From Chryseolinea sp. (GTDB lineage Bacteria; Bacteroidota; Bacteroidia; Cytophagales; Cyclobacteriaceae), in NCBI GenBank assembly GCA_025923195.1, contig JAICGJ010000003.1, forward strand, positions 1 through 64,000: DNA of 64,000 nt. The letters run 5' to 3'. Under the pieces are notes generated by a model. That model was not told where the DNA came from and ran no database searches. It worked only from the letters and a program-made list of their open reading frames with translations. How positions within the stretch are numbered: position 1 is the first letter of the stretch; the number at the start of each line of letters is the position of its first letter. The position numbers were made by a program, and so were the translations under genes. Shown one piece after another: positions 54,734-60,457 of the stretch.

Positions 54734-54864
54734 ATTATCCTTTCAGCTGATGGCCCCGTAGCCGATTCTTTTCCTGGGCGCAGACCTGCTTTTTAAAGAA
54801 GTGCTATCAGCAGAACCATTTCATGGCTGCCTCTTTTGATTTTTTCAGCTAATTGACTTATGGA

Positions 54865-57411
54865 ATGAACTTAAGACATTCTGCCTTTTATCACAGTGGA
54901 CTGGCACGAGAAGTAAAAAGTAGCCAGGCCTTTGACCAGGAAGCAGTGCTCCTTGATCTGAAACATTTTTTACCTGCTCAGGGACCTCTAAAAGATTTTA
55001 TTCATCACAATACGCTGCACGCATTTCAACACTTAAAATTTTTTGATGCCTTGAGCCGTGCTTCAAAATTATTTGGCTACAAGGTGTCGCTTTCTTTATA
55101 TGAATACCGTAGACTGTATGTATCGCGGAACATCGACGAAGATATTCTCACCTGGATTATTGTCCAGCGGAAAGGCTCCCAGGAGGTAAATCGGTGGAAG
55201 GAAAAACTGATCAGCGAAAAATATCATCAAACAAGACTACCGAGGATTGGTCAGCTGCGTTCCAATTGGAAGAGACACTATCAGATCGACCTTGATTCGC
55301 TGGTGCACCCCACGCTATTCCGAGTTATTTGTAGCTACCTGGATCAGGGGATTGCTATGTGGAAATTTCCGAGTCACCCGGAAGGCTTTCTGGCATCCCT
55401 GCGCGAGCTTGAACGCAATAGTTTTACAAGCTTTTTCAGGAATAAGAGAGCGCGTAAGATTTTAATGGAGGGTTCGCACGACATAGCCAGTCTGCTGAAA
55501 ATTCTAATCGGAGATAAGTCCCAATACAAGCAATATCTTTTCGATCAGCAATTTGCCCATCAAGGCTGGTCAGGAATGGTGGCATACATCGAAGATCATC
55601 CTCAAAGCCTCCTGGATACTAAAAAAGTATCTTTGCATGACTTTGTGTTTTTTGAACTACTCCTAGAAATTGATGCGCTTGATTCTACGTTCGGCAATAT
55701 TTGGGCGCCTCTGTCATTAAAAGTCAGGAAGAAACCAGTTGACCTTTTCGCGGAAGAAGAAATAAAAAGTGAATTGGATGAAGTCCTTTCGATGTGGCAG
55801 GAGGCCTTCGAATGGACGCACTACGATCAGGCGCTTTCCGGAATTCTAAACCAGAAACGAAATCAGCAGCAATCCGCTCTCAAAAGCTTTCAAGCAATAT
55901 TCTGTATCGATGACCGGTCATTTTCATTCCGACACTATCTTGAAAAGTTTGACAGTCAATGTGAAACGTACGGCACGCCTGGATTCTTTAATGTCGAGTT
56001 CTTTTTTCAACCGGGTAGCGGAAAATTTTATACTAAACTATGCCCGGCTCCGGTAACTCCGAAATATCTTATCAAGGAAACAGCCTCTAATGAAAAGAAG
56101 GAGAAAGATGTACACTTTACGAAGCATTCTCACACATTATTCAGGGGTTGGTTTATTACGCAGACGCTGGGATTCATCTCGGCCCTCCGGCTGGCCCTAA
56201 ACATTTTCCGACCTAAAGCCAGCGCTGCTACTGCTTCCTCATTTGCCCACATGAACAAGGTATCAGAACTAACAATAGAGAACGGGGACGCCAGTCAGAC
56301 AGAAAATGGGCTGCAGATCGGGTTTACGGTCCAAGAAATGGCTATGCGTGTAGAGGATCTGTTAAGAGGCATCGGGCTAGTGAAAGACTTTGCCTCACTT
56401 GTCTATATTATCGGTCACGGCGCAAGCAGCGTAAACAATCCGCACTACGCTGCCTACGATTGTGGCGCCTGTGCGGGACGGCCTGGTTCGGTCAACGCCC
56501 GTGTGATTTGCTTTATGGCGAATCACCCAGGGGTAAGGACAATACTTCGCTCAAATGGGCTGAATATCCCTGACGCAGTCCGCTTTGTCGGAGGCTTGCA
56601 AGATACGACGCGAGACGAGATCGAATTCTTTGATGTGAACAAGTTGGACGAAGGAATGCTTGAACTGCATCGAAAAAATACCAGCGTTTTTGCAAAAGCC
56701 TTGGACGCAAATTCAAAAGAAAGATCGCGCCGGTTTGAATCCGTCAATACGCGTATGCCTGCCGCAAAGATCCATGAAAAAATCCGCACGAGATCCGTTT
56801 CATTATTCGAGCCCAGGCCTGAACTCAATCATGCAACTAACAGCTTGTGCATTGTTGGTCGAAGAAGTCTGACCAAAAATTTATTTCTCGACCGGCGCGC
56901 ATTTCTCAACTCGTACGACTACAGCCTTGACCTCAATGGCAAAGTACTTTTCAATGTTTTAAAACCGCTTGGTCCCGTTTGCGGCGGAATAAATCTCGAA
57001 TACTTTTTCTCCAGGGTCGATAACCAGAAGTTGGGAGCTGGTACCAAACTTCCGCACAATGTAATGGGTCTCTTCGGGGTAGCAAACGGAATTGAAGGTG
57101 ATTTGAGACCAGGGCTTCCAAGCCAAATGATCGAAGTACATGATCCTGTGAGGCTGATGCTGCTGGTGGAGCATTTTCCTCACGTAGTATTGGAAACGAT
57201 CCAACGATCCGATGAAGTGTATGAATGGTATATTAATGAATGGATCCACTTGGTTGTTTTCGATCCATTGACAGAAAAGTTGTATTTATTTCGCGATGGC
57301 ACCTTTACCGACTATCATCCAATCCAAAGAGCGGGTGTGACAAGCGATGTGACAAGCCTAATTGAATCCACTCGAGAAAATATTTCGGCTCATATAATCA
57401 CCACGCCATGA
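54865..57411 (+). CDS. dabA: DabA-type inorganic carbon transporter subunit (DUF2309)
   Basis: Start revised to ATG 54865; 'AIFCIDDRSFSFRHYLE' (Cys/Asp) and 'YIIGHGASSVNNPHYAAYDCGACAGRPG' (His/Cys) match the beta-carbonic-anhydrase-like zinc-site pattern of DUF2309/DabA. Confidence 0.92.
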   Translation: MNLRHSAFYHSGLAREVKSSQAFDQEAVLLDLKHFLPAQGPLKDFIHHNTLHAFQHLKFFDALSRASKLFGYKVSLSLYEYRRLYVSRNIDEDILTWIIVQRKGSQEVNRWKEKLISEKYHQTRLPRIGQLRSNWKRHYQIDLDSLVHPTLFRVICSYLDQGIAMWKFPSHPEGFLASLRELERNSFTSFFRNKRARKILMEGSHDIASLLKILIGDKSQYKQYLFDQQFAHQGWSGMVAYIEDHPQSLLDTKKVSLHDFVFFELLLEIDALDSTFGNIWAPLSLKVRKKPVDLFAEEEIKSELDEVLSMWQEAFEWTHYDQALSGILNQKRNQQQSALKSFQAIFCIDDRSFSFRHYLEKFDSQCETYGTPGFFNVEFFFQPGSGKFYTKLCPAPVTPKYLIKETASNEKKEKDVHFTKHSHTLFRGWFITQTLGFISALRLALNIFRPKASAATASSFAHMNKVSELTIENGDASQTENGLQIGFTVQEMAMRVEDLLRGIGLVKDFASLVYIIGHGASSVNNPHYAAYDCGACAGRPGSVNARVICFMANHPGVRTILRSNGLNIPDAVRFVGGLQDTTRDEIEFFDVNKLDEGMLELHRKNTSVFAKALDANSKERSRRFESVNTRMPAAKIHEKIRTRSVSLFEPRPELNHATNSLCIVGRRSLTKNLFLDRRAFLNSYDYSLDLNGKVLFNVLKPLGPVCGGINLEYFFSRVDNQKLGAGTKLPHNVMGLFGVANGIEGDLRPGLPSQMIEVHDPVRLMLLVEHFPHVVLETIQRSDEVYEWYINEWIHLVVFDPLTEKLYLFRDGTFTDYHPIQRAGVTSDVTSLIESTRENISAHIITTP

Positions 57412-59276
57412 CATTTTTTTTAGAACTTTTTATCCTTATTCCCGTGGCGGGATTTATTCTGAGCTTATTGATACCAGGCAAAAAGGAGAATAGTATCTCG
57501 TGGGTAGTTTACTTTACCGTGGGGATACATCTCTGTATGTTTTTGGTCTTCACAGGATTCTGGTTTTGGCAAGATCGCCCAATTCTCAACCTCAAAGATA
57601 TTGTCCTCTTTAAGACAGAAGGCTATGAGTTTTTTATTGATTTCTACTTTGACAAGATCTCAGCGGTGTATCTGTTAGTGGGTTCCTTTCTTACTTTCCT
57701 CGTAGGGATTTACAGCCGAAGTTATTTGCACAGAGAAAACGGATACAAACGCTTTTTTAATACCATCCTTTTCTTTTACGTAGGGTATAATATTGTAATT
57801 TTTTCCGGAAATCTTGAGACGCTTTTTATGGGCTGGGAGATCCTGGGGATCTCTTCGTTCCTGCTTATAGCTTTTTACAGGGATCGCTATCTTCCAGTGA
57901 AAAACGCCGTCAAAGTATTTTCTATTTACCGTATCGGCGATGTGGGCATCCTACTCGCGATGTGGATGAGTCATCATCTATGGCATGAAAACATCACATT
58001 CCTCAAGCTCAGCAACTATGAATTAGTGAGCTCGCAATTACAATCTCACAGTGTAATCGGCGTATTTATTTCGCTGATGATTCTCATTTCAGCTGTTGCC
58101 AAGTCCGCGCAATTTCCATTTTCATTTTGGCTGCCAAGAGCTATGGAAGGGCCTACGCCTTCCAGCGCGATTTTTTATGGAGCACTTTCGGTTCACGTCG
58201 GCATATATATTCTGCTGAGAACATTTCCATTCTGGGAACACCAGTTGTCAGTCAGAATATTGATTGGCTTAATAGGGCTGATTTCAAGCATTATTGCTAC
58301 CGGCATCGCACGCGTCCAATCCTCGATAAAAAGTCAGATCGCCTATGCTTCTATTGCCCAGATTGGAATCATCTTTATTGAGGTCGCAGCGGGGTTCCAA
58401 AACCTCGCGTTGTGGCACTTTGCTGGGAACGCATTCTTGCGAACTTATCAACTCCTGGTTTCTCCTTCCGTTGTAACTTACCTCATCCGTGAACAGTTTT
58501 ACAATTTCACCCCCCGGAAGCAAACCATCGAAGATTCGCTCCCCAAAAAGATTGAATACACGTTCTATATGCTTTGTCTGAAGGAATGGGGTCTTGACTC
58601 ACTCATGTATCGATACCTATGGAATCCACTCAAATGGGCCGGAAGGAAACTGAATGTACTTTCCCTCAACGGCGTGATCTACTTCTTTATCCCCGCTTAC
58701 CTTGCAGGACTATTTTGTGTTTATAACAAATCCCTGATATCTCAACAAATACAGACTTATTTACCAATGCTCTTTTCCATCATCGGTCTGGTTATGGTAA
58801 TAAAATCCTTTGTTGAAAGGAAGCAGTCTATGTTGAGTTGGGTGCTAATCATTATGAGCCATTTTTGGATAGCTTTGGCTGTTGCGTATAATGAACAATT
58901 TAAATTTGATGAAATTCACTTATATCTAAGCGGAATTGCTGTCTCAGGGGTCATAGGGATATTTTGCTTGCGACGACTAAAGTTTCATGAAAATGAGAGC
59001 GGCCTGGAAAAGTTTCAGGGGCATTCTTATCGGCATCCAAAGATTGCGCTCGTTTTTCTGATTGCTTGCTTGGGTGTTTCCGGGTTTCCAATTTCACCAA
59101 CCTTCATAGGAGAAGATTTAATTTTCACTCATATCCATCCGGACCAGGCGCTGCTGGCCTTTGTGATCTCGATAAGTTTTATTGTTGATGGTCTTTCTTT
59201 GATAAGAATCTATGCAAGAATCTTTCTCGGACCTCATGCTAAATCTATCTATGAGATGGCATATAAGTCATCATGA
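57408..59276 (+). CDS. dabB: DabB-type NuoL/MrpA-like proton-conducting membrane subunit
   Basis: 622 aa; 'ISAVAKSAQFPFSFWLPRAMEGPTPSSAIFYGALSVHVGIYILLR' proton_antipo_M signature; overlaps the dabA stop by ATGA. Confidence 0.92.
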   Translation: MTFFLELFILIPVAGFILSLLIPGKKENSISWVVYFTVGIHLCMFLVFTGFWFWQDRPILNLKDIVLFKTEGYEFFIDFYFDKISAVYLLVGSFLTFLVGIYSRSYLHRENGYKRFFNTILFFYVGYNIVIFSGNLETLFMGWEILGISSFLLIAFYRDRYLPVKNAVKVFSIYRIGDVGILLAMWMSHHLWHENITFLKLSNYELVSSQLQSHSVIGVFISLMILISAVAKSAQFPFSFWLPRAMEGPTPSSAIFYGALSVHVGIYILLRTFPFWEHQLSVRILIGLIGLISSIIATGIARVQSSIKSQIAYASIAQIGIIFIEVAAGFQNLALWHFAGNAFLRTYQLLVSPSVVTYLIREQFYNFTPRKQTIEDSLPKKIEYTFYMLCLKEWGLDSLMYRYLWNPLKWAGRKLNVLSLNGVIYFFIPAYLAGLFCVYNKSLISQQIQTYLPMLFSIIGLVMVIKSFVERKQSMLSWVLIIMSHFWIALAVAYNEQFKFDEIHLYLSGIAVSGVIGIFCLRRLKFHENESGLEKFQGHSYRHPKIALVFLIACLGVSGFPISPTFIGEDLIFTHIHPDQALLAFVISISFIVDGLSLIRIYARIFLGPHAKSIYEMAYKSS

Positions 59277-59400
59277 GGAAGTTATTACTTGTGCATAACT
59301 CAGTGGAAAAGTTGTGGAGTACTTTTTTGAAAAATATTTGCTATACGATAATCAGCAAAGTACCTTCATATCACTAAGTCGTTTTTTAAGGACTTGATCA

Positions 59401-59656
59401 GACAGGACCAGTAAACAAAATTTTATTTCTTACGGGAAGTAGAAACAAAGAAGCTGGGGCTGGATGGTTGTGCCAACGAGTAAGAGATCCTTCGGGTGAT
59501 CCCAGACGGTGGTACGAAACTGAGAATGGCTGTCGCAAGACGGTCGGACGAGGTTTTAATCCTTGAAAGGCCCTAAGGGTTGAACATTGGTTTCGGCTAA
59601 TGTCCAATTAAGACGGGAAACTCTCAAGCAATTGACGGGTTTCCCGTTTTTTTTTG
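59401..59656 (+). ncRNA. candidate structured noncoding RNA ending in an intrinsic terminator
   Basis: No convincing ORF; cUUCGg hairpin (59486-59501), 7-bp stem with GCAA tetraloop GGCTGTC-GCAA-GACGGTC (59528-59545), ACATT/AATGT hairpin (59584-59603), terminal stem plus T run. Confidence 0.55.
59613..59655 (+). terminator. strong intrinsic terminator
   Basis: ACGGGAAAC (59613-59621) pairs perfectly with GTTTCCCGT (59639-59647), followed by about nine T. Confidence 0.9.
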
Positions 59657-59686
59657 TATCCTGCCAAACACAAGTGAATTATCACT

Positions 59687-60457
59687 TCAAGCCCAGAAAT
59701 CAATCAACGTTATCACAAAGTTGTATGTAAAGTGCGCGGCAATTCCATACCATAATGTATTATACTTCATTCGCATAAACGCGAAAATCAATCCTAGCGG
59801 CACAAGCCAGAGCATACTGATCACCGCGAGGTGAATTATCCCGAATATGAAACCTGTTATATAAATCGCACTTCCCGCTGACGTAACTTTTGACAGGTTG
59901 GAGAATAAGAATCCACGAAAAGTGACTTCTTCGAATAATGCCGGTTGAACACAAATAAACAAAACTGCCCACAAAAACGGTGTGGACGTATCTTCAAATA
60001 GGTAGGTGCTGTAGAAAACATCATCCTGTATTGAAAACTGAATAATGTTTGCCAATCCTGTAACCATTATCCCGGCTATCGCTGCACAGACTATTGTTAA
60101 GCTCATCAGACCCAGCCGCAATCCGTTTAAAGAAAACAGATGCCTCAGCTCTTTAAAGTAGAATGCCCAGAAAGCAATCACAAAAATTACATCAATACCT
60201 GATATAATCGCCAGACCTTTAAAGCCTGGTGGAAAAATATCCGTCAGCTTGTAAGCAGCAAGCAATACAAGGGTTACAAAATAATAGACTAACGTAGGGG
60301 CTAGTGTTTGTATAACATCGCTTTGTACCGGCGGGCTTTCTGGATTGGAAAGTACTTCTTTTCCACAATGCCCACAAAAACGATCACCCGCCACAACGGT
60401 TCCATTACATGACTGACACTGTACTCCCGAGACTTCAATTGAATTATCCGTTGTCAA
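59687..60457 (-). CDS. CPBP-family intramembrane protease with N-terminal zinc ribbon
   Basis: 256 aa; 'CQSCNGTVVAGDRFCGHCGKEV' zinc ribbon; 'EEVTFRGFLFSNL' and 'FIFGIIHLAV' CPBP motifs. Confidence 0.92.
   Translation of the reverse strand: MTTDNSIEVSGVQCQSCNGTVVAGDRFCGHCGKEVLSNPESPPVQSDVIQTLAPTLVYYFVTLVLLAAYKLTDIFPPGFKGLAIISGIDVIFVIAFWAFYFKELRHLFSLNGLRLGLMSLTIVCAAIAGIMVTGLANIIQFSIQDDVFYSTYLFEDTSTPFLWAVLFICVQPALFEEVTFRGFLFSNLSKVTSAGSAIYITGFIFGIIHLAVISMLWLVPLGLIFAFMRMKYNTLWYGIAAHFTYNFVITLIDFWA

Follow-up and report, generated by a model that had tools for sequence, protein, structure and literature searches.

A putative standalone structured RNA gene beside dabAB in Chryseolinea sp. and its relatives in the Bacteroidia

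To our knowledge, few large structured bacterial RNAs have been described, each new one having pointed to unforeseen biology, and little is known of replication control and of global RNAs in the Bacteroidota. Among the systems closest to the locus presented here, 6S RNA (RF00013) and 6S-Flavo (RF01685) are likewise standalone structured RNAs with promoters of their own, the latter being the Bacteroidota version and thus the taxonomically nearest known housekeeping regulator RNA. 6S RNA, however, forms one rod that is closed by its two ends and opens into a central bubble, whereas the present RNA is predicted to form a junction closed by helix P1 and bearing the arms P2 to P4, with P5 and P6 outside P1. 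GOLLD, ROOL, OLE and HEARO are likewise long, multi-arm structured RNAs, and some members of the form termed type II below reach ~600 nt and contain a repeated module; yet no Rfam match to any of the four is found in type I or type II, and the present RNA has no recurring protein neighbour. The EcpR1 sRNA of Sinorhizobium is also a conserved structured trans-acting RNA linked to DnaA and the cell cycle, but it is ~101 nt long, consists of two stem-loops and represses the dnaA mRNA (PMC4414408); no sequence relation to it has been shown, and here the putative DnaA link sits in the promoter. Finally, datA and other DnaA-box clusters are likewise intergenic and composed of tandem DnaA-box-like sites, whereas the array described here is a fixed part of the promoter of a covarying RNA.

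The window is the whole 64,000-nucleotide stretch of Chryseolinea sp. DNA that was analysed (contig JAICGJ010000003.1). The RNA gene is intergenic, lying between dabB, which ends at 59276, and a convergent CPBP gene (59687-60457, - strand). The dabA-dabB inorganic carbon transporter operon is complete (54853-59276), and DabA (Pfam E = 2.3e-212), the DabB-type antiporter subunit and the Rce1-like protein were all confirmed with Pfam. In our reading, 59290-59656 is an entire gene, whose product is a ~284-nt ncRNA that is structured, stands alone and acts in trans; together with the DnaA and ribonucleoprotein (RNP) proposals set out below and with transcription inferred, this reading is given a probability of roughly 0.7. 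The gene, its fold and its family are well supported and judged nearly certain; transcription itself is inferred, there being no expression data. The RNA, a type I member, is placed at 59373-59656, from the predicted +1 to the end of the T-run, and a covariance model matches the window at 59372-59656; all of its features lie on the + strand. The sequence-only reading had proposed an element of ~250 nt, which stands as a discrete structured element, although its 5' end lies ~28 nt earlier than was then supposed.

The conserved DNA also reaches further upstream than that reading, the match with relatives, promoter included, extending back to ~59290. In the Bacteroidota, the sigma factor promoter comprises TTTG near -33 and TAnnTTTG at -7 (PMC7366714), the latter being located at -12 to -5 (PMC9723704). 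A TTTG at 59337-59340, which occupies the same aligned place in relatives and matches the sigmaABfr TTTG (PMC7366714), is followed after a spacer of 20 by the conserved -7 box TACCTTCA (59361-59368), and every type I copy has a TTTG, a spacer of ~20 and a TAnnTT-type box. The RNA thus has its own predicted promoter of the Bacteroidota kind, TTTG-N20-TACCTTCA, and from the -12 to -5 placement (PMC9723704) the predicted +1 is therefore 59373, where P1 begins.

When 59 relatives were searched at the DNA level, the element turned up in three genomes (G004, 78%; G005, 71%; G029, 75%) and its 3' end only in a fourth (G009); the four are Chryseolinea sp. H1M3-3 and three MAGs of the Cyclobacteriaceae. 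A pattern scan of named genomes returned only four relatives, its terminator motif being too specific. With R1, a covariance model built from five sequences, full-length copies, also in other genera, were found in G071, G092, G112, G149, in G009 (the second of a tandem pair) and in G114 (a tandem pair), and model R2 added a copy in G367. In all, 10 further Cyclobacteriaceae genomes conserve the RNA at full length, and two of these have it in tandem. The RNA is not universal, since three genomes of the same genus (G001-G003) gave no DNA match and the first two of them no model match; plasmid and phage records likewise held no match to the element.

The sequence-only reading had seen dense RNA-like structure in the gap, and the predicted folding exceeds chance: for 59401-59660 z = -3.71, with 0 of 200 shuffles matching its stability, and with the corrected 5' end (59373-59656, + strand) z = -5.15, with 0 of 200 dinucleotide shuffles equally stable. 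The opposite strand gives z = -2.03. The type I alignment comprises 12 sequences of 41-87% identity and yields a consensus of 95 pairs, in 77 of which both partners change in one sequence or more; 85% of cells are paired. Its covariation score is 0.549; shuffling lowers this to 0.262 +/- 0.013, and sliding to no more than 0.168. Because this alignment had been fitted to the structure, and 5 of its 12 sequences had gone into the model, most weight falls on the slid controls; such fitting applies to alignments A3 and A5, and some of the sequences had served to build models. None of the reading frames stays open throughout the aligned sequences. Homologs and covariation, the evidence for which the earlier proposal had asked, were both found and, with the predicted promoter, they support an RNA that is structured, stands alone and ends in a terminator of its own.

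The long-range stem P1 (helix 1), whose limits are approximate, pairs 59374-59395 with 59554-59577 and closes the junction; 14 of its 19 pairs change on both sides and 73.9% of cells are paired, its middle being the weakest part and poorly paired in several members. The P2 arm (59396-59467) consists of a basal helix, a symmetric A-rich internal loop (AAACAAAA, 59413-59420, facing ACAAAGAA, 59445-59452) and an apical stem (59421-59430/59435-59444) with the loop TACG at 59431-59434; in its helices 2-4, 85, 84 and 91% of cells are paired, and both partners change in 21 of 24 pairs. P3 (59484-59503; helix 5, both-side change in 6 of 6 pairs) carries a TTCG loop at 59491-59494, the UUCG being replaced by GCAA in G092 and G149, and P4 (59516-59554; helix 6, 16 of 17 pairs) a GCAA loop at 59535-59538. 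P5 (59578-59609; helix 7, 12 of 13 pairs, 92% paired) has a TTCG loop, which is cTACGg in most relatives, and is common to type II. The intrinsic terminator P6 (59610-59656; helices 8-9, with 98.5-100% of cells paired) is formed by the stem 59610-59621/59639-59650, an inner UCAA-UUGA stem and a T-run at 59647-59655, and was also found by a terminator scan. All five elements first named from the letters are present in the sequence, and four of them belong to the conserved structure: the UUCG-capped hairpin of P3, GGCTGTC-GCAA-GACGGTC at 59528-59545, the ACATT/AATGT pairing at 59584-59603 and the terminator. The fifth, a GTTG-tgc-CAAC hairpin at 59467-59477, is not conserved; relatives lack the CAAC, and GGTTG pairs instead with an upstream TGATC (helix 2).

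A second form, type II, was first reached through partial matches of R1 and R2. It is ~250-630 nt long, with a 5' signature AYCAAGYGAGRGAUA and a 3' signature AACWGUARCUUGRC, after which come a cUACGg hairpin and a terminator. R3, a model of the type II core built without type I sequences, recovers 13 of 13 type I copies, the window scoring 25 bits, and at E <= 0.01 it matches 42 of 293 Cytophagales and 40 of 296 Bacteroidia genomes; in a phylum-wide sample only 7 of 299 genomes match at E <= 0.001. Among the class-level loci inspected, 13 of 25 also carry the 5' signature and the promoter, as judged by regular expression, and the rest may be divergent or false. The covariation score of the core over 81 distinct sequences is 0.649 against 0.246. 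The two types are taken as one family on the strength of recovery by R3, core covariation, the shared order of P1a, P5 and P6, and the shared promoter layout.

Several further observations concern the wider set of loci. Paired copies, tandem or closely linked and each with its own promoter, occur in several genomes, at L014 (6784-7455), L027 (1040-1781), L076, L055, L080, L081, L088 and L089. Type II RNAs in genomes of the genus g105 (L049, L052, L054; ~450-600 nt) contain an internally repeated module, GGCAC-AAAGG ... UUCUGARACGG-nnnn-CCGCAGAA-GUGYC, in 2-3 copies per RNA. A PhoH-like (PIN-PhoH) gene lies near the type II RNAs of one subgroup only (L120, L121, L123, L128, L133, L135).

As to how such an RNA might work, RNA polymerase with the housekeeping sigma factor would start at ~59373 and stop at the P6 terminator, and the transcript would fold so that the long-range P1 closes a multi-arm junction (P2 with its conserved A-rich internal loop, P3 and P4), followed by P5 and the terminator. 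Acting in trans, the RNA would then serve as a scaffold for an RNP or as a regulator, with a protein bound at its conserved internal loops, as is inferred. That it works as an RNP scaffold and not by base pairing is judged probable, if by no wide measure, its function being inferred. The alternative of a base-pairing regulatory sRNA, in which one accessible stretch would bind mRNAs while the remaining fold confers stability, remains possible although unlikely. The RNA resembles many sRNAs in having a promoter and terminator of its own, a variable context and tandem paralogs, and Rfp18 of Flavobacterium is a structured sRNA that acts on protease mRNAs (PMC9723704); yet the best-conserved unpaired stretches are the A-rich internal loops, with no exposed seed, and the size and multi-arm architecture go beyond those of typical sRNAs.

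The Rfam 15 covariance models gave only chance eukaryotic matches to the window (E 2.3-8.3) and no credible match to the type II loci, so that the known families which the sequence-only reading had left open (6S, HEARO, group II intron remnants) were not found. That it could be an unrecognised 6S RNA, which would bind RNA polymerase and repress it in stationary phase, is an improbable reading. In its favour, RF00013 had no match above cut-off in 6 carrier genomes or in 296 Bacteroidia genomes, with positive controls, and RF01685 none above cut-off in 10 carrier genomes and none at the RNA locus; against it, the RNA itself has no Rfam 6S match and, with a multi-arm junction and two hairpins outside P1, lacks the single rod and central bubble of 6S. 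In G009 the 6S-Flavo model matches weakly (41 bits against a cut-off of 85) at another locus, L137 (G009:C68:2299-2436), away from both RNA copies of that genome; this is possibly a divergent 6S RNA in the Cyclobacteriaceae, which otherwise show none. In the RNA-discovery papers PMC11109978 and PMC8632094, names in Flavobacter-, Chitinophag- and Cytophag- are absent. Judged on Rfam 15 and the open-access literature only, the putative RNA family is previously uncatalogued, being new by sequence and predicted structure.

Upstream of the promoter, 59290-59321 holds a same-strand tandem array of three DnaA-box-like 9-mers, TGTGCATAA (59290-59298), AGTGGAAAA (59302-59310) and TGTGGAGTA (59313-59321), spaced by 12 and 11 bp. 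The array is conserved in 13 type I upstream regions, the first box being degenerate in two, and it also occurs in type II; GTGGAAAAGTTGTGGANTACTTT is unique in the window's own genome. Within the 85 bp upstream of the core promoter in 63 upstream regions, 235 TGTKNATAA-like 9-mers lie on the same strand, against 56 +/- 8 after shuffling, which preserved base composition only, and 33 on the opposite strand. Box spacings are 11, 12, 23 and 34 bp, with peaks at 11 and 12. The DnaA box is TTATnCACA (PMC5742627), of which TGTGNATAA is the reverse complement, and only one of the three boxes in the window fits it. In G084 a TGTGGATAAC-GTGTGGATTA pair stands upstream of dnaA itself, and this pair and the reverse-complement match support DnaA as the binder without proving it. 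A TGTGKATAA-type tandem pair is also conserved beside an rpsU-like gene in G000, G004 and G112 (L159, L176, L161), so such pairs are not unique to these RNA promoters.

One feature expected of a DnaA-controlled promoter, a nearby cluster of DnaA-box-like sites, is present; in our proposal, transcription would be set by a DnaA oligomer on the box array just upstream, the binding being inferred. We put DnaA control of the RNA at slightly better than an even chance; binding is inferred by resemblance alone, and another factor could read the array. It is very improbable that the DNA is itself the working element, a cluster of DnaA boxes akin to datA or to an origin, and that transcription alongside it yields the RNA as a by-product. 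The same-strand spacing of 11-12 bp does resemble a DnaA oligomerisation region (PMC5742627), but strong base-pair covariation in the RNA is not expected from selection on DNA sites. An oriC is rejected as well: on contig C2 of G149 the GC skew stays negative for 525 kb and does not invert at 163 kb, and RNA copies lie ~250 and 670 kb apart in G031 and G101, where an oriC would be one per chromosome.

The gene reading is also borne out by genomic context. The genes on either side of the RNA vary by genome, dabAB adjoining it only in the window; an amine oxidase/ArfB neighbourhood is common to the window and G004, and among 234 neighbouring ORFs across the family no recurring protein neighbour was found. 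A cis-acting riboswitch had been thought unlikely, and remains so, since the next gene is convergent, the RNA ends in a terminator and the neighbours vary. That the RNA derives from the dabAB 3'UTR, as the sequence-only reading had allowed, or is a plain terminator region can be set aside almost entirely: it does begin 96 bp 3' of the confirmed dabAB genes on the same strand, but relatives conserve its own promoter and, because neighbours differ between genomes, with unrelated genes upstream, it is taken as a standalone RNA gene.

The present work thus describes an RNA family, spread over a major bacterial class and absent from Rfam 15, whose promoter offers a ready DnaA hypothesis. The broadest proposal remains tentative, its odds falling somewhat short of even: that large structured RNAs of a single family, class-wide in the Bacteroidia, are placed under DnaA control by a phased array of boxes and make up an RNA branch of the control of replication or of the cell cycle. 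Should the promoter array be read in this way, an RNA regulator may be linked to the cell cycle.
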